Below, piece by piece: positions 28,372 to 39,227 of a DNA stretch of 64,000 nucleotides. The translations under genes were made by a program, and so were the position numbers. The first letter of the stretch is position 1. Each line of letters begins with the position of its first letter. The stretch covers positions 1 to 64,000 of the forward strand of contig JAJECX010000038.1 of the NCBI GenBank assembly GCA_022821805.1, given 5' to 3'. Source of the stretch: Anaerolineae bacterium. GTDB lineage: Bacteria > Chloroflexota > Anaerolineae > Aggregatilineales > Phototrophicaceae. Under the pieces are notes generated by a model. It ran no database searches. It was given only the letters and a program-made list of their open reading frames with translations, and was not told where the DNA came from.

Positions 28372-29007
28372 CTAATTCTCTGCCTGTTGACTATCAGCCT
28401 TTTCTTGATTATTGGATTCCCGCAGAAACCACCAATAAAGCACTACAAAATAGATAATGACGAAAGCAAAGAGAGCATTTTGAAATAGCAGGAAATTTTC
28501 TGTATTTAGACAGATTTGAACCAGAGCCGCGATCTTCATCAATGCGACTAGCACGAAGATAAGCGGAATAACCTGTTTATAAAGTATGTCGATTGCATCA
28601 AGAAACTTAGGATAGTTCTCCAAATAACTTTCTCCTTCATGCAGGAATACTTTATCTCCAAAGAGACAATTCATCTGATCTTCAAGGCGGTTAGTTGTCT
28701 TATAAGAACGCTCGACGTTAATAGAAATCTGCAGATAGCGCACAATAAGTAACATCTGCGCAAACGAAAATCCAAATTCAACAATTTGAAAACTGATTGG
28801 GATAGATTCGCTTTGTAAGATATGCTCAAGCAGTGTTGAGACGAGCTTCTCAATATCCGCGGGGAATTGGGTTTGTAGCAGAATCAACAAGGTGAGGATG
28901 AGAATATAAAAGAGATACCGATAGCGATATCTGATATTATTACGTCGAGTATCTACAATATCTCGATAGTGCGCGTACAGCAGTTCAAGTTTCTTGTCAT
29001 CAGTCAT
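28372..29007 (-). CDS. Four-helix membrane protein paired with TIR-like protein (putative defence effector)
   Basis: 211 residues with hydrophobic helices at about 30-46, 73-92, 145-167 and 174-194, and a charged cytoplasmic loop (EDQMNCLFGDKVFLHEGESYLENYPKFL) between helices 2 and 3. No macro, SLOG or nuclease domain is found. It starts five bases after the TIR-like stop and shares its AT-rich composition, so the two form one unit. In Thoeris-type defence a TIR protein makes a nucleotide signal that activates an effector; a membrane protein is a plausible pore-forming effector here. This role is inferred from context, not from homology. Confidence 0.6.
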   Translation of the reverse strand: MTDDKKLELLYAHYRDIVDTRRNNIRYRYRYLFYILILTLLILLQTQFPADIEKLVSTLLEHILQSESIPISFQIVEFGFSFAQMLLIVRYLQISINVERSYKTTNRLEDQMNCLFGDKVFLHEGESYLENYPKFLDAIDILYKQVIPLIFVLVALMKIAALVQICLNTENFLLFQNALFAFVIIYFVVLYWWFLRESNNQEKADSQQAEN

Positions 29008-29012
29008 ATCAA

Positions 29013-29435
29013 CTAGGTGTCATTGAGCGCTTTTAGTATCGCGTCATGCGTGAAACTCATTGCCCATTCCGCGCCGGAGTTGAGCAACTCTTCGGGGCTA
29101 TCGTATTGCTTGTCTATTTTTGCCCCTACTAGCTTCTTGCCATGCTCTTTACTTCGGGCAATTTCAAAGTTGATCCAATTCCGATACCCTATCTTGGTCG
29201 AGTCTTTGTTCTTCTTGTTGGCGTTCTTTCCAACAATTACCAGGGTATGCGTCGCGCTTTTGATTCTCTTGGTTAGCGCGGCCTTGATGGTAGGTATGTC
29301 GTCTGATTGGATCTCTGGCGGAGTTCGGTCGACTATCTCGAAATCAAACTTGGGATTTTTGCTCCATGCATCAAGCAAATACCTGTAGTGCCTGTCATCC
29401 TCATAGTCGAAGCTTATGAATACCTTCTTCGCCAT
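29013..29435 (-). CDS. TIR-like (MTH538/ThsB-type) domain protein
   Basis: 140 residues forming a single domain: KKVFISFDYEDDRHYRYLLDAW (strand A and first helix), FEIVDRT, IKAALTKRIKSATHTLVIVGKNA, then YRNWINFEIARSKEHGKKLVGAKID. This is the pattern of the MTH538 TIR-like family that includes ThsB of Thoeris. In the W-x3-E arrangement, Glu91 would be the NAD-cleaving residue. ThsB proteins sense phage infection and make cyclic ADP-ribose-type signals. AGGAG lies 10 bases before the ATG. The usual effector ThsA (SIR2/SLOG or TM-macro) is absent; the next gene is a four-helix membrane protein. Confidence 0.8.
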   Translation of the reverse strand: MAKKVFISFDYEDDRHYRYLLDAWSKNPKFDFEIVDRTPPEIQSDDIPTIKAALTKRIKSATHTLVIVGKNANKKNKDSTKIGYRNWINFEIARSKEHGKKLVGAKIDKQYDSPEELLNSGAEWAMSFTHDAILKALNDT

Positions 29436-29585: not shown

Positions 29586-32513
29586 TCACCCAGCCCGCTC
29601 CAAATTCAGCGCCAGCAGCCGCCGCAGAATCTCCTCCTCATCATCCAGCACCGCATAGCCCCAGCCATAGGCATCGCAGACGGCCTCATCCAGCGCCCGA
29701 TGCAGCGCATCCAAACGCGGCGCGAAGTCACTGGCAGCGGGCTTGGTCTTCATGCTGTCGCGTCCGCGAAAGATGTTTAGGGCGTTGTAGAGGTTGGTGA
29801 GCGTGCGGTCTTTAACCCCCCTCGGTCCCCCCGTAGCAACGGGGGGAAGTTTGCTCGCGTCAGCGTCTACGGGATTGAGCCAGGCGTCGCGCTCTTTGTG
29901 CAACTGCTTGGCGGCGGCGCTGATGGCGGCATGGGCGGCGCAGGACTTGTCTTCGTTGCCGGGCGACCAGGGGAAGGGGAAGGTCTCGAATGTGGTGGTG
30001 GGCGTGTAGCGGGGACGGTCTTCGAGCGATGTGCCCATGCGAAGGGACCAGGTTTCGTGGAGTTTGGAATGGAGGACGCCGAAGAAGTAGTCATCGTCGC
30101 GGGCAGCTACAATAAGCGCGTGGTCAGGATGTGTATCGTGGTTCAGCCAAACAAATAGTCTGTGCTTTGCTACTGCGGACGTTGCAATGTATCGTCGCAA
30201 TGGTTTTAGTTTCGCTCGCATCTTCGGTCGAGGATTCCAGTGCAGCCACCAATAATTGCGCGAGTGCGCCTGTTTCGTTTTCTGGCGCATCGGTTTCACG
30301 TTGTCCTCAACGTGCTTGAAAGGTAACTCGTATTGCCTCGCAACCTCGATAGGCGTATCGACTCCAAAGTCAACAATCCATTGTCCGCGGGGTCGCCTCG
30401 TAACATCCATTCCATTTGCGATGGGTTTTAACACTTCTTGGTTCTTTGGGTCAGCGTCGATCATCGACTTAGCAAGACTTCCATCCATATCGAACGGTCC
30501 GCGCTTTATGATTGCTTGAAACGAAAGGTTCTCATTTTCAGACAGTACACGCGCCCTGGTGATATCAACATCCGCAGTTAGGTCAGAGTGAATCGTCTGT
30601 ACTGGTATCCCATCTAGTCGCACTAAACCGTCAACACCATTGTCAAAGCAGATCATTGATACTCGGACTGCCGCGCCATCAAGAATCCAGTTGCGGTCTG
30701 ACCAAGCGTTGAAGATGCTGGCACGGTTCACAATATTTTGGAGCACAGTTCGGTTTGTACCACCGCGAATCGAATTGGTCGCTAGCAGACCCACACGGTT
30801 GACCTTATGTTGAAGCAAATGGTTTAGCGCTTTCTGATGCCAATAGCAGACCAAATCAGGTGTTAAGGCTCCGAAATCGGAGCGGAATTGTTGTACGAGT
30901 CGATCAACATACTCATCGCCTAATTCCGGCCGCATTTTACGATTGCCCAAAAAAGGCGGATTGCCGACGATGACATCGACGGGGGGCCAGTCGACCGCAG
31001 CGTTTTGCGCGTTGAGGGCGACACAAGTGTCGCCCCTACAATTTTGGAGGGCAGGCGGGGGCTTTGGCGGCAGGATGGCGTCTTTGCAGACGATATTGTC
31101 TTCCAGCTCTTCCAGAATCGGCTCTCGGAAAGCTTGCCCGTAGCCATTGTCTTGCCGCCACTGGATGTAGCCGATCCAGACGACGATGCTGGCCAGCGCG
31201 TGGGCGATGGGGTCGAGCTCGATGCCGTACATCTGGCGCGGGTGGACTTCCGGCGCCGGCAGCTGCAAGCCGGCCCAGAGCGGATGCTGGATGACCTCTT
31301 TTTCCAGGTCCATCAGCATTTGCAGCGAGACGTAGAGGAAGTTGCCGCTGCCGCAAGCGGGGTCAAGCACGGTCACGCTGCGGATGCGTTTCAAGATGCG
31401 CTCGCGCAAATCCAGCAGTTGGCGGCGGGCCTTGGTTTGCGCTTTGCCCGTGCGCGCCGCTTCGAAACGTTCGCGGATCGGCTGCGCCTCAAGCTGGATC
31501 GTATCCCATTCGTAACGCAGCGGCTGCATCAGCACCGGCTCGATGATGAGCAGAATATCCTCGCGCGAGGTGTAGTGGGCGCCGAGTTGGGCGCGTTTGT
31601 CCGGGTCGAGGCTGCGCTCAAACAGGGCGCCGAAGATGGTAGGCTCAATCGCGCCCCAATTCAGCGGCGCCGCCGTCGCCAGCGCTTCCAGCGCCTCAAC
31701 CGAGAGTTCTTCCACCGTGACGACATGGAAGAGCGTGCCGTTGAAATAAGGAATATCGCGCATGAGGATATTGCCGCCTTCGTTCATGGCGACGAAGAGG
31801 TTCCGCACATATTGCTTGAAAACGGCTGGTTTGCCGCGCGCCTGCTCGATGATATGGCTGAAGATGCCGCGCGGGCTATCCACGGCACTGGGCAGCAAGC
31901 CGACATCTTCGGCGAAGAGGCAGAAGACCAGCTTGGTCAGGAAATAGGCGATGCGCGTCGGCTCGGCGTTCCAGTCGCGCATATTGTCGGCGATCAGCTG
32001 AAAGGCGTCGGCCGCTTCTTTTGTTACCTGCTCGGTATTGCGGCGCGGATGCAAGCGCATGGGATCGTGAAACATCGCTTCAAGCCAGCGCATGACCTCG
32101 CGATTGCTGCCGATTTCGCGGTGCTGGAAGGCGTAGACGCGCTTCTGGGTATTGGGGAAGTTGCTATGGATCTCCCAGTGGTTGATGTCGGTGACGACCA
32201 GCAGCGGCGGATTGTTCAGGTTTTCGCGATATTGCAATAGTTGTTGGTAGGCGGCGTTCAGGTCGGGATATTTGTCCGCGCCTTTGTATTCGATGGCGAA
32301 GTGATTTTCGTAATAGACATCGGCGCGTCCGTGCCCGCTGGCTTTTTGCAGCGGCTGCTCAAAGACGAAGGTCTCGCCCGCTTCCGTTCTGCCATCGCCC
32401 CCGGGCATCTCGACGCCAAGCAGTCGGCAGACATCAAGAAAATGCGCCTGCCCGCTCTGCAGCTCTCCAAGGGCGGTGTTCGCCCATTTGTTGAGGAATT
32501 CGATCGGCTGCAT
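29586..32513 (-). CDS. MmeI-like (type IIL) fused restriction endonuclease-methyltransferase
   Basis: 975 residues. The N-terminal nuclease has D65-x9-E75-Y-K77 (ADVYYENHFAIEYKG), matching MmeI. A helical spacer leads to the gamma-type N6-adenine methylase: motif I DPACGSGNFL near 381-390 and motif IV NPPF near 515-518; a target-recognition region and C-terminal helices follow. Such enzymes methylate one strand of an asymmetric site and cut about 20 bases away. Two repeats are read in frame: family A at residues 491-500, shortly before NPPF, and family C at 888-900. TGAGGAGAG precedes the ATG. Activity may be altered by the insertions. Confidence 0.88.
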   Translation of the reverse strand: MQPIEFLNKWANTALGELQSGQAHFLDVCRLLGVEMPGGDGRTEAGETFVFEQPLQKASGHGRADVYYENHFAIEYKGADKYPDLNAAYQQLLQYRENLNNPPLLVVTDINHWEIHSNFPNTQKRVYAFQHREIGSNREVMRWLEAMFHDPMRLHPRRNTEQVTKEAADAFQLIADNMRDWNAEPTRIAYFLTKLVFCLFAEDVGLLPSAVDSPRGIFSHIIEQARGKPAVFKQYVRNLFVAMNEGGNILMRDIPYFNGTLFHVVTVEELSVEALEALATAAPLNWGAIEPTIFGALFERSLDPDKRAQLGAHYTSREDILLIIEPVLMQPLRYEWDTIQLEAQPIRERFEAARTGKAQTKARRQLLDLRERILKRIRSVTVLDPACGSGNFLYVSLQMLMDLEKEVIQHPLWAGLQLPAPEVHPRQMYGIELDPIAHALASIVVWIGYIQWRQDNGYGQAFREPILEELEDNIVCKDAILPPKPPPALQNCRGDTCVALNAQNAAVDWPPVDVIVGNPPFLGNRKMRPELGDEYVDRLVQQFRSDFGALTPDLVCYWHQKALNHLLQHKVNRVGLLATNSIRGGTNRTVLQNIVNRASIFNAWSDRNWILDGAAVRVSMICFDNGVDGLVRLDGIPVQTIHSDLTADVDITRARVLSENENLSFQAIIKRGPFDMDGSLAKSMIDADPKNQEVLKPIANGMDVTRRPRGQWIVDFGVDTPIEVARQYELPFKHVEDNVKPMRQKTKQAHSRNYWWLHWNPRPKMRAKLKPLRRYIATSAVAKHRLFVWLNHDTHPDHALIVAARDDDYFFGVLHSKLHETWSLRMGTSLEDRPRYTPTTTFETFPFPWSPGNEDKSCAAHAAISAAAKQLHKERDAWLNPVDADASKLPPVATGGPRGVKDRTLTNLYNALNIFRGRDSMKTKPAASDFAPRLDALHRALDEAVCDAYGWGYAVLDDEEEILRRLLALNLERAG
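29814..29850. repeat. Family C repeat inside MmeI-like gene
   Basis: CCCCCCTCGGTCCCCCC, short loop, CGGGGGGAAG; nearly identical to the intergenic unit at 27533-27570. Read in frame it encodes KLPPVATGGPRGVK near the C-terminus of the R-M enzyme. Confidence 0.8.
31014..31042. repeat. Family A-like repeat inside MmeI-like gene
   Basis: Carries GGGCGACACAAGTGTCGCCC with a CTACA tail, the same core as the intergenic copy at 26230-26257. It encodes NCRGDTCVAL in frame, 15 or so residues before the NPPF motif. Confidence 0.85.
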
Positions 32514-32961: not shown

Positions 32962-33213
32962 ATGGATGGCAAAACACAGCTTGTCGGCTGGATTGAAGGT
33001 GCCAAAGTCCGCGGAAGCGCGCCCCTGCTGCTGACGCTGCTGGATGCCTTTGAGCCGCTGGCGCCGGCGCTGGCGCAGGGTCTGCTGGTGGCGCAGCCGC
33101 TGGCGAAACTTTGGCGCGGCGCCGACGCGTTTGGCGCGCTCGCCGACCTGCTGGAAGAGCCGGAGGGCTTGCGGGAATTGCGGCGGCAGCTGGCTGACGA
33201 CGGGGCGGAGTAA
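32962..33213 (+). CDS. Small hypothetical protein, first gene of the MutL operon
   Basis: 83 residues from the ATG at 32962 (MDGKTQLVGWIEGAKVRGSAPLLLTLLDAFEPLAPALAQGLL). Leu/Ala-rich with two amphipathic helices and a charged C-terminus (EEPEGLRELRRQLADDGAE); it is not clearly a membrane protein. Its stop is 5 bases before the next start, and it has the same GC-rich composition and codon style as the following genes, which supports it being real. The family was not recognised. Confidence 0.55.
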   Translation: MDGKTQLVGWIEGAKVRGSAPLLLTLLDAFEPLAPALAQGLLVAQPLAKLWRGADAFGALADLLEEPEGLRELRRQLADDGAE

Positions 33214-33218
33214 GCGGA

Positions 33219-34037
33219 TTGGACGATACAACCCTGCAGGTCTACAGCCTCCTGTTCGTATTCGCGACGGTGGTGCTGGTCTACACCGCGCGTTTCTTCC
33301 AGGCGCGGCGCGGGCGGCGGCGCAGGCAGCGTCAAATCGCCGGCTTTGAGCGAATCCCGCAGTGGACGACGCAAAGCATCGAATCGAACAGACCGCTGCA
33401 TTTGGCTTATGGCGGCGCGGCGGTCGGCGGCGACAATACGCCGGTGACGCTGGCGGGCGCTGAGTTCTTTCATCAGGTGATCGAAGGGGCGAACGCCAGC
33501 GATGCGTCGCCGCTGGTGACGATGTCGGCGCCGGAGACGATTCCGCTGGGGCAAGATACGCTGCGGCGCGCCTGGCATAAGGGCGATACGCTTTCGCGCG
33601 CGCGCTGGCTTCCGCCGGGTCTGGCTTATGCCGGCGCGGTGACGGCTTCGATGGCCGATGACGAGCCGACGGCGCATATCATGGCTGGGCAATTTGGCCC
33701 CGAGTTGGCGCTGCTGCTGGATAGCGCCAGCCGCCACGGGCAGCCTTCTCTGGCGGTCAGCGACCGGTTGGACGGGGGGGCGGTGGCGTATGCGATGGCC
33801 GATTACGTCTTGATCGGCGAAGAGCTCTATGCGGCGGCCGGCTACCTCGCCGAGGATTCGCCGGCGCGCGCCGATGCGGCCGTGCTCGATGTTTGGCGCG
33901 CTTTGATTCTCTTGGGCGTGACGGCGCTGCTGCTCTTGGAGTTTAGCAAGCAGCTTGCCGTCTTGAGTGGACCCCTGGTGGCGGTTGTCGCGGCGATTTT
34001 GGTCCTGCTGGGCCTCGTCAGCTACCGGAGGCGCTAG
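33219..34037 (+). CDS. Membrane protein of unknown function (DUF6754-like) in MutL operon
   Basis: 272 residues, start TTG at 33219 with GGAG upstream. One N-terminal helix (VYSLLFVFATVVLVYTARFF), a basic stretch (RRGRRRRQRQ), a soluble alpha-beta domain (about 35-225), and two C-terminal helices (ALILLGVTALLLLEF and a VAAILVLLGLVSY segment). The opening and the following HLAYGGAAVGGDNTPVTLAGAEFF recall DUF6754 proteins of Chloroflexota; this match is from memory. Position between two tightly spaced genes (5 and 3 bases) puts it in the operon that ends with the MutL-like ATPase. Confidence 0.65.
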   Translation: MDDTTLQVYSLLFVFATVVLVYTARFFQARRGRRRRQRQIAGFERIPQWTTQSIESNRPLHLAYGGAAVGGDNTPVTLAGAEFFHQVIEGANASDASPLVTMSAPETIPLGQDTLRRAWHKGDTLSRARWLPPGLAYAGAVTASMADDEPTAHIMAGQFGPELALLLDSASRHGQPSLAVSDRLDGGAVAYAMADYVLIGEELYAAAGYLAEDSPARADAAVLDVWRALILLGVTALLLLEFSKQLAVLSGPLVAVVAAILVLLGLVSYRRR

Positions 34038-34040
34038 CGA

Positions 34041-34694
34041 ATGGGTCTCGGGTCGCGCGCCGGCTTGTCCGCCTTTGTCGCCTTTATGGTCGGCGTCGTC
34101 ACCATACTCAGCTTGCTCTTGGGTGACAATCCGGCGCTGTTTGGCGATCAGCCGGGGAGCGACGAATTGGCGCGGCGGCTGGCTTTGCCCGGCGATGTCC
34201 TGTTGCGGCTGGTTGTGATTGTCGTCGCCGTCAGCATCGTCATCGGCATCGCCAATCTCTTGTTTGTGCATATCGGTCGTCTGGCGCGCCGCAAGTTCAT
34301 CAGCGCCGTATTGCTGGCGAGTTTCGGCTTCACGATTTACTGGTATGTGACCAGGCAAGGCGATACGAGCTTGTTGGAAGCGGTGCAAGTTCCGATTGAA
34401 TCTTCGCTGGCGGCGCTGCTGTTTTTGTCGCTGGCCTTAGGGGGCGCGCGCGTCATGCGGAAGCGCGCCGATATCTGGGGCATGCTCTTCGTTGCGGTCG
34501 CGCTGGTTGTTCTGCTAGGCAGCCTGCCGCTGGCGGAGTTGGCGCCGGTCAAAGCCTGGAGCGACTGGCTGATGTCGGCGCCGGTCAGCGCCGGCGCGCG
34601 CGCGCTGCTGCTGGGCATTGCGCTGGGCGCGGTTGTCGCCGGTGTGCGCGCCTTGCTGGGGCAGGACCGCGCTTACCGCGCTTACCGCGGTTAG
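34041..34694 (+). CDS. Six-helix membrane protein in MutL operon
   Basis: 217 residues with about six hydrophobic segments (LSAFVAFMVGVVTILSLLLG, VLLRLVVIVVAVSIVIGIANLLF, FISAVLLASFGFTIYWYV, SLAALLFLSLALG, MLFVAVALVVLLGSL, ALLLGIALGAVVAGVRALL). A short external segment after helix 1 contains GDNPALFGDQPGSDELA. It starts three bases after the previous stop. No transporter signature or catalytic motif was found. Confidence 0.65.
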   Translation: MGLGSRAGLSAFVAFMVGVVTILSLLLGDNPALFGDQPGSDELARRLALPGDVLLRLVVIVVAVSIVIGIANLLFVHIGRLARRKFISAVLLASFGFTIYWYVTRQGDTSLLEAVQVPIESSLAALLFLSLALGGARVMRKRADIWGMLFVAVALVVLLGSLPLAELAPVKAWSDWLMSAPVSAGARALLLGIALGAVVAGVRALLGQDRAYRAYRG

Positions 34695-34795
34695 GCGATG
34701 GATATTTGCCGGACCGGCGCAAAACAGTCCGCCGTACTCGGGAAGCGCATTAAGCCCTTCGCTATTGCGCTTGATGGAGTTTGTAAAACCGATAG

Positions 34796-36784
34796 ATGAG
34801 CGAAGAATTTAACTGGCTGGAATACGCTGAGCCGGAGGAAAGCGCCCCTGAGCTGCCGCAGCGCAGCGGTCGGCGTCGCATTCTGCCGCGCTTGCCGTCT
34901 TTGCCTCGCCCGCGGCTTCCCCGCTTGCCCGGAAAGCCGCGCAAGCCGCGCATGCCGCGCCTGCCCAAGCTGGCGCTTTTGTGGCGGCGGCGTGGGGAGG
35001 CGGCGCTAGAGCAGCCGTCTGCTACTGATCTGCTGGGCGGTCATGACGAGCGATCGCTGGACGAATTGGACGATCGCTTGCTCAGCTTGCGTGAACGCTC
35101 GGTCGCCAGTTCGCAGCCGAGCGCCGATTCGCGGCAGGCGCTTTATGATGTCGATGATGTATTGGTGACGCCGGAAATCCTGGAGAAGCCGGGCGGCGTT
35201 ATCAGCGCGGTTGCGCTATCGAAAGCGCAGCAGCAGCAGGTGGAATTGCTGCGGGATATCGTCGGCGGAGCGCCGCAAGCGGATGAACCTGGCGGAGGCC
35301 GCCTGTTTCGCAGCGCCCCCGTCTTCTCGCTGAGCGCGGTTCCGCGTGTTGTCGGCACGGGCATTCTGCTATTGATGGCGTCATTGCCATTTGTCTCGTC
35401 GGATTTCTCCGAGGGCGAACTTCCGCCTTCGGATTTCGCCGAGGATCGTCCCGGTCCGACTACCGTATATAACCTGCTGGACAATTTGTCGGCCGACGAT
35501 TTCGTGCTAATCGGATTCGAATATGGACCCACGTCCGCTGGCGAACTGGACCCGATCGCCGATCTCATGCTTCGTCATATCGTGGCGCAGCGTGCCGTAC
35601 CGCTGATCGTCAGCAGCAACCCGATCGCGATTGCGCGCGCGCAGAATATCATCCGCGAGATCAATCGCTCGGTTGCTTCGACCGAGCTTAGTCTGGAGCG
35701 CGGCGCCGATTATCACATTCTGCGCTACTTGCCGGGCGGCTCGCTGGGGCTGCGCGAATTGAGCGAAAATTTCGCTGATGTCGTTAGGGTTTCCGCAAAG
35801 GGAGAACTGACCGGGCTGGAATTCGCATCGCTGAGTGAGATGTCGCTTATCGTGCTAATCGCAGAATATGCGGAAGATATGCGCAATTGGGCAGAGCAGG
35901 TGATTTCCGAGGCCGACGGTGCGCGCCTGCTCGCGGCCACTGGTTATGCGGCGGCGCCAATTGCCCAAGTCTACGCCGATACCATGGATGGGATCACCGG
36001 CTTGGTGGTGGGCTATCGCGATGCCTACACATACGGTGAAAAGCTGGAATTGAACTTCGGCGAGCTGCCGCAAGCCCAGCCGGAGGTCGAGCCAGCGTTG
36101 CCAGAAACCGCTCCCGTTTCGCCGGTGGAGCGCGCCCCGGCAACGGCGCAGCCGCCTCCGACCGAGACAGCGATTCCGAGCGCCACGCAGCTGACAACGG
36201 CCACGCCGGAACCGACAGTGACGTCGCCGCCAACGGCGACCCAATTGCCAACCGCAACCGCCACGCTTGAGACCATCCGCATCGTCGAAGTGACTTCGCC
36301 GCAGCAAGTGCGGATTCGGCGCGGTCCGACAACGGCGGATGACATTCTGCAGCTGGCGCGGGCGGGCGACTCCTTTGAGGTGACCGGCGCAAATGGCGAT
36401 GGAAGCTGGTATAGCATTGCATTGTCGAATGGTCTCGAAGGCTGGATCGCCGCGTTTCTGGTGGAAGAACGCACCGTGACTGTAGTGGAGTTTCAGTCTG
36501 GTCAAGCGAGCGCCTCGGCAAACCTTTCAGATGAGCGCGTCTTTTTGTGGCTGGAAAGCATTGTCAGCCTGGGGAAGACGCGTCCGCGCTTCTATCAGTC
36601 CGATTCACCGGTTCCTGGCGACGAGCTGGAATATATCTGGATGCGCGACCGCTCGCGGGAGGTCCCGCGGCTTCGCGCCATGACCTTCGGAACGTTGGCG
36701 GCGACTTTGCTGATCGCCGTTGGCAATGTATTTTATGCGCTTGCAGCGCTGCGTCGGCGCGGGCGCGACGCGCAAAGCGAGTAA
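34796..36784 (+). CDS. Large membrane protein with Arg/Pro-rich N-terminus and SH3-like domain
   Basis: 662 residues. Residues about 18-68 are PRLP-type repeats (RPRLPRLPGKPRKPRMPRLP), strongly basic and cytoplasmic. A helix near 185-205 (VVGTGILLLMASLPFVSS) leads to an external domain (TVYNLLDNLSADDFVLIGFEYG...) of unknown type, then a Thr/Pro-rich linker, a bacterial SH3 domain (VRIRRGPTTADDILQLARAGDSFEVTG...GWIAAFLVEE, about 490-550) and a final helix (LAATLLIAVGNVFYALAAL). Bacterial SH3 domains bind cell-wall material, so it may connect the membrane complex to the envelope. The 100 bases before it hold no gene. Confidence 0.65.
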   Translation: MSEEFNWLEYAEPEESAPELPQRSGRRRILPRLPSLPRPRLPRLPGKPRKPRMPRLPKLALLWRRRGEAALEQPSATDLLGGHDERSLDELDDRLLSLRERSVASSQPSADSRQALYDVDDVLVTPEILEKPGGVISAVALSKAQQQQVELLRDIVGGAPQADEPGGGRLFRSAPVFSLSAVPRVVGTGILLLMASLPFVSSDFSEGELPPSDFAEDRPGPTTVYNLLDNLSADDFVLIGFEYGPTSAGELDPIADLMLRHIVAQRAVPLIVSSNPIAIARAQNIIREINRSVASTELSLERGADYHILRYLPGGSLGLRELSENFADVVRVSAKGELTGLEFASLSEMSLIVLIAEYAEDMRNWAEQVISEADGARLLAATGYAAAPIAQVYADTMDGITGLVVGYRDAYTYGEKLELNFGELPQAQPEVEPALPETAPVSPVERAPATAQPPPTETAIPSATQLTTATPEPTVTSPPTATQLPTATATLETIRIVEVTSPQQVRIRRGPTTADDILQLARAGDSFEVTGANGDGSWYSIALSNGLEGWIAAFLVEERTVTVVEFQSGQASASANLSDERVFLWLESIVSLGKTRPRFYQSDSPVPGDELEYIWMRDRSREVPRLRAMTFGTLAATLLIAVGNVFYALAALRRRGRDAQSE

Positions 36785-36797
36785 TGGGTCCGGCTTG

Positions 36798-37478
36798 ATG
36801 GCAGAGAACACAGTAGCGCTCGTCAGCTTCGTTTTGACCCTGATGGTCTTCAGTTATTTGTTGGGAGACCTGCCGCTGATCGGCATTCTGTATCGCGTGG
36901 CTGTCTACATTTTCGTGGGCATGACTGCCGCCTTTACCTTGGTCGTAAGCTACGAAGGCGTGATCTTGCCATACCTTCAGGATATTCAGAACGTTGAGAC
37001 GAGTTGGACGACGCTGGGCAATGCGGCTGATGTAGCCATCTTCTTCACCGCGCTGCTATTTGGATTGCTGCTGCTGCTGAAGCCGATACGATCGCTGACC
37101 TGGCTGACCAACAGCGTATACGCCGTGGTGATTGTCGTTGGCGCCTCGGTTGCGGTGGTCGGCGCCTTGAACGGCACAATATTTCCCTTGCTTCAGGCGA
37201 CCGCTGCAATTCCAGAGGATCTAACGGCGGACTTTAGCGCCATGGTTGATACGCTGATTATCTTCATCGGCACGATGTCGGCTTTGTTCTATTTTCATTA
37301 CCAGGTACGCGCGAATGGCGCTGGGGGCGAGCAGCAGAGCCGCCTCAGCCGCGGTTTTCGCCATATTGGCAAAGTGTTTATTGTGACGGCTTTGGGCGCT
37401 ATCTACGCATCTATGATCTTGAGCAGCCTGACGATTCTCACCGAGCGGATCAGCTTCCTGTTTCAGATTGGCGCCTGA
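36798..37478 (+). CDS. Membrane protein of unknown function in MutL operon
   Basis: 226 residues from the ATG at 36798 (MAENTVALVSFVLTLMVFSYLLGDLPLIGILYRV); a frame extending to 36720 overlaps the previous gene and is unlikely. Six or so hydrophobic segments include VAVYIFVGMTAAFTLVV and VAIFFTALLFGLLLLL, the last near the C-terminus (FIVTALGAIYASMILSSLTIL). It ends three bases before the MutL-like start. The arrangement is like a small channel or assembly subunit; function unknown. Confidence 0.65.
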   Translation: MAENTVALVSFVLTLMVFSYLLGDLPLIGILYRVAVYIFVGMTAAFTLVVSYEGVILPYLQDIQNVETSWTTLGNAADVAIFFTALLFGLLLLLKPIRSLTWLTNSVYAVVIVVGASVAVVGALNGTIFPLLQATAAIPEDLTADFSAMVDTLIIFIGTMSALFYFHYQVRANGAGGEQQSRLSRGFRHIGKVFIVTALGAIYASMILSSLTILTERISFLFQIGA

Positions 37479-37481
37479 TTC

Positions 37482-39227
37482 ATGAACGAGTCAGGCATCA
37501 ACTCGATTCTGGCCGCGGACTTCGGCAGCGTTAACACGCGCGCCATGCTGATCGAACAGGTCGATGGCGAGTATCGGTTGGTCGGGCAGGGTATTGGACG
37601 TACTACGATGGGCAGGTCCACGGAGGATGCCTATCAAGGCTTGGCAGCGATACTTCGGAAGATGAGCGAATCGACCGGACGCCGGTTCTTCGATGAAGCT
37701 GGTCAATTGATTCGACCGGAACAAAGCGACCGCGTCGGCGTCGATTATTTCCTCACGACGACTAGCGCAGGTCAACCCTTGCGCGCCGTGTTGGTTGGCT
37801 TGTATCCGCAGGTCAGCATTGCGGCGGCGCGGCGCGCGATCGCTCCATTTTACATTGATGCCGTCGCCGAGGTTCATCTCGAAGACGGCTTGGGCGCCAA
37901 GGGCCGTCTCAACCGCATTATCCATAGCCGGCCACAGCTGATCTTCATCACCGGCGGAACCGATGGCGGCGCGCGCGCAGTTTTGCTGGAAATGCTTGCG
38001 CTAACGCGCGAGGCAGTCTTGTTGATGCCGCAGAGTAACAGACCGACGGTCCTATATGCCGGAAACAGCAGCTTGGCGATTTCTGCGCGCGAGATGCTGA
38101 GCCAGCAGGTTGAAGTCCTGATCGCGCCCAACATTCGGCAAGGCGACGGCGAGGCGCTGGATCCAGTGCAATCTGTGCTCACTGGCAACTTTGACAATGT
38201 CAAACGGCATAGCAAGAGTTTCCAGCGAATCGCGTCAATGTCTGATTCCGGCTTGACGCCGACCGCGCGCGGCGTCGAGACACTGACTGCGTTTTTCGCC
38301 CGTTCACTGGACAAGGGAGTGTTGACAATCGACTGTGGAAGCGCGCGGACGATGCTGTCACTGGCGCGACAGGGGACAGTGCAAACCGTCGTCCAAAACG
38401 ATCTTGGCCTTGGGCATAGCGCTGCCGCAGCGCTCGAGCTGATTGGCGACGAAGAAATCGCGCGCTGGCTGCCGTTTCATCCGCGCAAAGGAGAGTTAGC
38501 GCAATACACGCTGAACAAAGGTTTGCGTTCGTCCAGCGCGCCGCTGGATATGCGCGAGCGCTATATCGAATACGCGCTGCTGCGAGCCGCTATCCGCCAG
38601 ATGAAGCCTGAGTTAGGTCAGCTTGATGGCGCGCAGATTGGCTTGGTCTTATTGGCTGGCGCGACATTGACTGGCAGCGGGATTGGCGCGCTTGATATGC
38701 TCTTGCTGGCGGATGCGCTTGAATTTGAAGGCGTCGTCGAGGTCAAGTCGGATCGATTCGGCGTTTTGCCGACGCTGGGGACATTAGCTTCGGTTGCGCC
38801 AAAGGCGGTCATTCAGTTGATCATCGGCAATGCGCTTGAGCACGTGGGTTCTCTGGTCCGCGTATCCGGGCGGGCGGCGGCGGGAGAAACAGCGGTCAAG
38901 GTAAAAGCGATGCGGGAGAAGGGCGAGACAATTGAGCGCGAAGTCCTCGCGGGCGATGTCTGGCATTTGCCAGCGCCAGCCGCGAGCGCTATCGATCTGC
39001 GCATGCAGACGCGGCGTGGATTGTCTATCGGCGGGAAGCGGCGGCTGCGCCTTCAGGCGCGGGGCGGGCGCGGCGGCGCGCTGATCGACGCGCGGCTGGA
39101 TGCGCAAGCGGGGTCGAAGACGATGACCGAGCGGGCAGTGAATATGCTGCGCTGGTACGCGGCGGTTACCGGGCAGGAAGGTCCCGTGGCGATTCCCGAA
39201 AGTTGGCTGGAGGGGGTGGATGCTTAG
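37482..39227 (+). CDS. MutL-like (glutamate mutase L family) ASKHA ATPase
   Basis: 581 residues. An actin/Hsp70-type nucleotide fold is visible: phosphate-1 loop ILAADFGSVNTRAMLI (about 8-23), a second glycine loop FITGGTDGGARAVLLE, and TIDCGSARTMLSLA and LVLLAGATLTGSGIG further on. The order matches the MutL family encoded beside coenzyme-B12 glutamate mutase, thought to reactivate or assemble that mutase. No glutamate mutase (MutS/MutE) gene is near; five upstream genes encode mostly membrane proteins instead. A role in assembling or powering this membrane complex is inferred. It is the last gene of the operon. Confidence 0.82.
   Translation: MNESGINSILAADFGSVNTRAMLIEQVDGEYRLVGQGIGRTTMGRSTEDAYQGLAAILRKMSESTGRRFFDEAGQLIRPEQSDRVGVDYFLTTTSAGQPLRAVLVGLYPQVSIAAARRAIAPFYIDAVAEVHLEDGLGAKGRLNRIIHSRPQLIFITGGTDGGARAVLLEMLALTREAVLLMPQSNRPTVLYAGNSSLAISAREMLSQQVEVLIAPNIRQGDGEALDPVQSVLTGNFDNVKRHSKSFQRIASMSDSGLTPTARGVETLTAFFARSLDKGVLTIDCGSARTMLSLARQGTVQTVVQNDLGLGHSAAAALELIGDEEIARWLPFHPRKGELAQYTLNKGLRSSSAPLDMRERYIEYALLRAAIRQMKPELGQLDGAQIGLVLLAGATLTGSGIGALDMLLLADALEFEGVVEVKSDRFGVLPTLGTLASVAPKAVIQLIIGNALEHVGSLVRVSGRAAAGETAVKVKAMREKGETIEREVLAGDVWHLPAPAASAIDLRMQTRRGLSIGGKRRLRLQARGGRGGALIDARLDAQAGSKTMTERAVNMLRWYAAVTGQEGPVAIPESWLEGVDA

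Follow-up and report, generated by a model that had tools for sequence, protein, structure and literature searches.

In the type IV pilus, PilM, a soluble actin-fold protein with bound ATP, links the membrane platform of PilN and PilO to a separate motor ATPase (PMC6325625). Two further protein families are joined in a larger genetic unit: DUF6754 (PF20539), whose Pfam entry describes a single protein of unknown function, and a MutL-like (PF13941) protein of the ASKHA (acetate and sugar kinases, Hsp70 and actin) fold. Here, we describe this unit, starting from a 64,000-nucleotide stretch of an Anaerolineae bacterium from the phylum Chloroflexota (contig JAJECX010000038.1 of assembly GCA_022821805.1, positions 1 to 64,000; in the following, the window), in which six genes, g1 to g6, occupy positions 32962-39227. 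Together with a seventh, c5, they belong to a system of at least seven co-conserved families, most of them without an assigned domain. The g2 family is already in Pfam as DUF6754, but the system appears not to have been described as such: a literature search, which did not extend to subscription journals and preprints, so that a prior description is possible, found no paper that mentions DUF6754 or PF13941, and none with the seven-gene context; it gave only general papers on GlmL, PilM and FtsA. Its anchor gene falls into the MutL family and is for this reason commonly taken for that of a glutamate mutase accessory protein, so that the system stays hidden.

All six open reading frames (ORFs) lie on the forward (+) strand in the order g1-g2-g3-g4-g5-g6, with gaps of 3-13 bp throughout, except for 101 bp between g3 and g4. 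The first gene, g1 (32962..33213), encodes a small soluble protein of 83 amino acids; profile search and alignment of its homologs reveal a conserved family core (PAIxFLE..PLxFxGSQ..xFxxP), which is degenerate in the window; the protein matches no Pfam or NCBIfam family. The membrane protein g2 (33219..34037) matches PF20539 over residues 8-238 with 57.8 bits (E-value 1.2e-15; gathering cut-off 27 bits), and its alignment, hydropathy and the positive-inside rule give one transmembrane helix, a cytoplasmic domain of ~195 amino acids and two further helices; in several other phyla, it carries an N-terminal extension with a signal peptide. Both g3 (34041..34694), which aligns with homologs from several phyla, and g5 (36798..37478) have six transmembrane segments by hydropathy, and neither reaches the cut-off of any family in Pfam and PDB profile searches. 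A bitopic membrane protein of 662 amino acids with two such segments, as judged by Pfam, hydropathy and alignment, is encoded by g4 (34796..36784), and the MutL-type ASKHA protein of 581 amino acids by g6 (37482..39227); neither g1 nor g6 has a credible transmembrane segment. Among the six proteins, Pfam matches above cut-off are confined to g2, g4 (SH3_3) and g6 (MutL). Profile-profile comparison supports a common origin neither for g3 and g5 nor for the soluble domains of g2 and g4, and a scan for promoters and terminators yielded no useful site, with terminators at chance level.

The arrangement of these genes is strongly conserved. Of 301 sampled Chloroflexota genomes, DUF6754 is present in 67, and in 53 of these it is followed on the same strand, at a distance of 2.2-6.3 kb, by a MutL-like gene; the two genes are on separate contigs in 12 genomes, no MutL is listed in 2, and in none of the 67 do both lie on one contig without being close to each other. 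When we read 40 Chloroflexota neighborhoods as DNA, the order g1-g2-g3-g4-g5-g6 proved constant across many families, usually followed by c5. Moreover, g2-g3-g4-g5 occur in this order on all 77 strands that carry the four membrane genes, from about ten phyla (a few loci in this count represent one contig counted twice, e.g. L074/L104, L068/L156 and L090/L172). For these surveys, genes were called by a simple ORF method with profile support in sampled sequences, mostly from metagenome-assembled genomes, and loci were assigned to Chloroflexota or to other phyla by their record titles. Judged from gene positions, the recurrence of the order across phyla is far from chance. The original prediction, made from the window alone, had seen a tightly spaced cluster in which a MutL-type ASKHA protein forms one unit with four membrane proteins, and had looked to Chloroflexota for a conserved gene order. 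Hydropathy, Pfam matches and the conserved order bear this out; the system is conserved in that phylum, but it is not confined to it.

A search with a marker pattern from the g6 C-terminus yielded 573 or more relatives, and we retained the best 80. Besides Chloroflexota, these 80 come from Armatimonadota, Planctomycetota (including Scalindua), Poribacteria, Zixibacteria, Eisenbacteria, Cloacimonadota, WOR-3, Bdellovibrionota and Bacillota (Symbiobacterium). Outside Chloroflexota, the usual order is g1-g6-c5-g2-g3-g4-g5, and the g1 family was detected by profile search at 46 of these 80 loci and at 27 loci in Chloroflexota. Among the genomes sampled, a unit without assigned function, as traced by DUF6754, is carried by 85% of Armatimonadota (103 of 121), 25% of Planctomycetota (49 of 199) and 22% of Chloroflexota; DUF6754 also exceeds the cut-off in 2 of 144 Bdellovibrionota and was found in none of 14 model genomes. 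That g1 to g6 are mere co-transcribed housekeeping neighbors without a joint function is hardly tenable, given that the membrane genes keep their order across about ten phyla while the flanking genes vary, and that the gene set stays intact even when it is permuted.

The system is also modular. The membrane block may lie apart, be repeated in tandem or occur several times in a genome, and the g6-c5 pair is also found without it; of 38 genomes in which g6 loci lack adjoining g2-g5 genes, 30 encode DUF6754 at another place, some of them with 2-6 copies and tandem arrangements. We observed tandem duplications of g2-g3-g4-g5 at four loci, and two g6-c5 pairs within one cluster at locus L160 and in Symbiobacterium (L173). 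An amplified membrane module would suit what we regard as the main rival to the interpretation proposed below, namely a modular ATP-driven transporter, in which g3 and g5, with six transmembrane segments each, form a conduit, g2 and g4 provide domains for substrate or gating on the cytosolic and the external side, and g6-c5 acts as an energizing unit shared by several membrane modules per cell, comparable to group II energy-coupling factor (ECF) transporters. The intact motifs of g6 outside Chloroflexota, described below, would fit as well. Yet g3 and g5 match no transporter family above cut-off, no solute-related gene recurs beside the cluster, and in Chloroflexota, where the ATPase motif is lost, g6 could not supply the power. 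Furthermore, ECF-type transporters employ a P-loop ATPase and S/T components, families that none of the six window proteins matches above cut-off. We therefore consider a transporter unlikely.

Recurrent neighbors are limited to c5, to a gene upstream of g1 that encodes a PH-like membrane protein and, in some phyla, to a GcvPB-like gene. The small PH-domain-like protein, encoded just upstream of g1 at nine loci from several phyla, is a possible eighth component. A gene resembling glycine decarboxylase subunit 2 lies immediately or shortly upstream of g1-g6-c5 at eight loci of Cloacimonadota, Eisenbacteria and related lineages. The composition of these neighborhoods bears on another alternative, according to which an extracellular appendage or a surface polymer is built or moved by the system, as a pilus, gliding or S-layer machine would. 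While the pairing of an ASKHA protein with polytopic membrane proteins is reminiscent of PilM-type platforms, and the extracytoplasmic domains of g4 as well as the signal peptide of g2 in several other phyla would be in line with such a role, in none of the phyla examined is the cluster regularly accompanied by a gene for a pilin, secretin or traffic ATPase, and the carriers are phyla with very different surfaces. This makes an appendage or polymer machine distinctly improbable.

The identity of g6 is central to any interpretation. It scores 148 bits against Pfam MutL (cut-off 27), and its AlphaFold2 (AF2) model (pLDDT 92.9, pTM 0.92) adopts the ASKHA fold; the top PDB matches in Foldseek are the acetone carboxylase beta subunit, hydantoinase, PilM and FtsA, all ASKHA proteins. 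Since the fold-search matches also include a diol dehydratase reactivase, one might take g6 for a reactivating chaperone of a B12-dependent mutase, of the GlmL, OR-4 or KamB type, that stands beside membrane genes by chance. Its scores speak against this. Against the GlmL equivalog NF040745, with a cut-off of 475 bits, the window g6 reaches 61 and six homologs 83-245 bits, whereas a true GlmL from the same class, encoded beside glutamate mutase E (MutE) at locus L003, reaches 563.6; all seven operon g6 proteins fall below every NCBIfam cut-off for GlmL, OR-4 and the GlmL family. In an unrooted maximum-likelihood tree, GlmL, Chloroflexota g6 and g6 of other phyla form one group each (support 100/100, 100/99 and 93/91). 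On these sequence criteria, g6 is not GlmL. Nor is a client apparent: MutE (PF06368) is absent from the genome of the window and exceeds the cut-off in just 4 of the 301 Chloroflexota, versus 67 for DUF6754. Besides a single MutL-like gene, we found two B12-binding proteins in this genome, which we identified by eye as methylmalonyl-CoA mutase, with a gene for its own MeaB-type GTPase downstream, and methionine synthase. We rejected a reactivase role on the GlmL cut-offs, the absence of MutE and the identity of the B12-binding proteins, and regard it as very improbable; the original prediction of a MutL-type protein without a B12 mutase partner has held.

Compared with the described GlmL/MutL proteins (NF040745, TIGR01319, PF13941), g6 shares the MutL-type ASKHA domain and, outside Chloroflexota, the motifs DxGSTTTK and GGATTD. 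It differs in its genetic context, among membrane genes rather than mutase genes, and by an additional conserved C-terminal beta domain (residues 453-545, 38838..39116, + strand), which marks the g6 subfamily through its DARGRP-containing signature GGxxGxxIDARGRP, in the window GGRGGALIDARLDA. One further Chloroflexota MutL-like protein (L007/L097, G184), an ORF of about 1260 amino acids with an intact GGATTD motif, lies outside the g1-g6 system and groups with GlmL on a long branch.

The ATPase motifs of g6 divide the system in two. We aligned 77 g6 proteins, 36 from Chloroflexota and 41 from other phyla. In all 41, TDCGSTTTK, VDIGGATTD and GSGG are kept almost letter for letter, and the second aspartate of the phosphate-2 motif is always present. 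By contrast, none of the 36 Chloroflexota proteins, including that of the window, retains this aspartate, and many vary elsewhere, too. The window g6 reads DFGSVNTR at phosphate-1, DCGSARTM at phosphate-2 (within the degenerate IDCGSARTM, 38322..38372, + strand) and LAGATL at the adenosine motif, and therefore has no intact catalytic site. It does retain the first aspartate of both phosphate motifs, so that nucleotide binding is possible. According to established ASKHA enzymology, on which our reading of the motif loss rests, ATP hydrolysis by the window g6 is doubtful. The original prediction had pictured an envelope machine powered or assembled by an actin-like ATPase. With the phosphate-2 aspartate lost, powering is unlikely in the window and in Chloroflexota at large and assembly likelier, whereas in most phyla, where the motifs are intact, a nucleotide cycle probably acts on the membrane module. 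This clean contrast between intact and degenerate motifs makes the question of motor or scaffold directly testable.

A second difference between Chloroflexota and the other phyla concerns g4. In the window, it consists of a Pro/Arg-rich cytoplasmic tail with PRLP repeats (34796..35320), a first transmembrane helix, an extracytoplasmic alpha/beta domain, an SH3 domain and a second transmembrane helix, all on the + strand. An AF2 model of the alpha/beta domain (residues 224-413, 35465..36034; mean pLDDT 83, pTM 0.76) is Rossmann-like, but the fold search returned generic Rossmann matches only (TM-score about 0.35) and no close PDB match. By the positive-inside rule, this domain and the SH3_3 domain (residues 505-553, 36308..36454; PF08239, E-value 9.3e-8) are located outside the membrane. 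The tail is N-terminal and precedes the first helix; a PRLP-rich cytoplasmic part had been anticipated from the window alone. The external SH3-like domain anticipated along with it is present, but it is not a general feature of g4: in the g4 proteins scanned, it was confined to the window and to its sister, the same-family relative L062 (E-value 4e-11). Outside Chloroflexota, g4 comprises just about 270-300 amino acids, with two transmembrane helices around the alpha/beta domain and almost no tail. In most Chloroflexota, by contrast, the tail extends over roughly 200-1200 amino acids, often includes a zinc ribbon and is rich in LPxW[LMI] repeats, of which 46 g4 tails contain 185, compared to 1.1 expected from shuffling. 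Ktedonobacteria and relatives encode a stand-alone zinc-ribbon protein with 5-14 LPxW(L/M/I) repeats directly before g6-c5, at loci where g2-g5 are not nearby; we noted this protein at eight loci. Its position ties the motif to g6 and c5 and suggests that the repeats serve docking to these proteins.

The gene for c5 follows g6 in most Chloroflexota. In the protein, a barrel-sandwich hybrid domain, RnfC_N-like in 18 of 30 members, precedes a middle domain without assignment and, at the C-terminus, a KOW motif. It is thus related in the first of these domains to the N-termini of RnfC and NqrA, but differs from them in its KOW motif and in that no Fe-S, flavin or NADH domain was matched. In the window, c5 does not follow g6, nor was it detected in the genome; this is a weak negative, as the assembly is 95% complete and the c5 model may not reach into this lineage, and the contig of the sister, L062, stops right behind g6.

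Taken together, we propose, with a probability of about 0.45, that the operon encodes a membrane-embedded envelope platform organized by a cytosolic ASKHA protein, which in Chloroflexota would serve as a scaffold. The four proteins g2-g3-g4-g5, with about 17 transmembrane helices, would form a membrane module that bears the cytosolic domain of g2 and the extracytoplasmic Rossmann-like domain of g4, and the SH3 domain added in the lineage of the window probably binds to the cell wall. On the cytosolic face, g6, usually with c5, and g1 would dock as a second module. In most phyla, g6 is intact, and its nucleotide cycle probably serves to assemble, gate or remodel the membrane module. The g6 of Chloroflexota, that of the window included, is most likely a scaffold, comparable to PilM in the type IV pilus platform and to FtsA in the divisome, and docking may have been taken over by the lengthened g4 tail, in most Chloroflexota with its LPxW(L/M/I) repeats. 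Of this picture, the gene set with its order and distribution, the topology, the standing of g6 as a subfamily, its motif loss and the tail repeats are established from sequence, while a physical complex, docking, the loss of ATP hydrolysis, wall binding and the role as a platform are inferred.

Several observations weigh against this proposal. With g1, g3 and g5 lacking a family and g4 being only generically Rossmann-like, nothing points to a specific process. The Foldseek TM-scores of g6 are low (0.25-0.33), with acetone carboxylase slightly above PilM and FtsA, which places the likeness to the latter two at the superfamily level only. Motif loss alone does not prove that hydrolysis is lost. 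Lastly, the g4 tail of the window is short and PRLP-rich, with neither a zinc ribbon nor the LPxWL motif, and as c5 was not found either, the tethering proposed for other Chloroflexota may not hold there.

Upstream of the operon, the window encodes on the reverse strand a Type IIG restriction enzyme-methyltransferase (29586-32513; PADLOC E-value 4e-246), transcribed away from g1-g6, a TIR-like ThsB protein (29013-29435; PADLOC E-value 2.5e-13) and, beside the latter, a 211-amino-acid membrane protein (28372-29007) without a PADLOC match. The last two are possibly a Thoeris-like or TIR plus membrane-effector defense pair.

In a broader perspective, and at somewhat under even odds, these proteins may represent an ancient envelope machine, in which a single cytosolic ASKHA/barrel-sandwich pair attends to one or more copies of the four-protein membrane module; in Chloroflexota, its ATPase would have decayed to a pseudo-enzyme, and the membrane partner would have gained a multivalent LPxWL tail that kept the complex together. 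Among known systems, FtsA shares with g6 the ASKHA fold and a proposed role as a membrane-associated scaffold, but it has no sequence relation to g6, no link to FtsZ is seen for g6, and the operon is a different one. Likewise, no sequence relation to PilM is detectable, as a profile built from the g6 alignment had no hit among PDB sequences; no traffic ATPase or pilin gene lies near the cluster, and the partners of g6 are two proteins with six transmembrane segments besides g2 and g4, unlike the ferredoxin-like PilN and PilO with their single segments. What the PilM-PilN-PilO platform and this system would have in common is their plan: a cytosolic ASKHA-fold protein joined to membrane proteins with extracytoplasmic domains, in which the ASKHA part acts as a coupler rather than a motor (PMC6325625).

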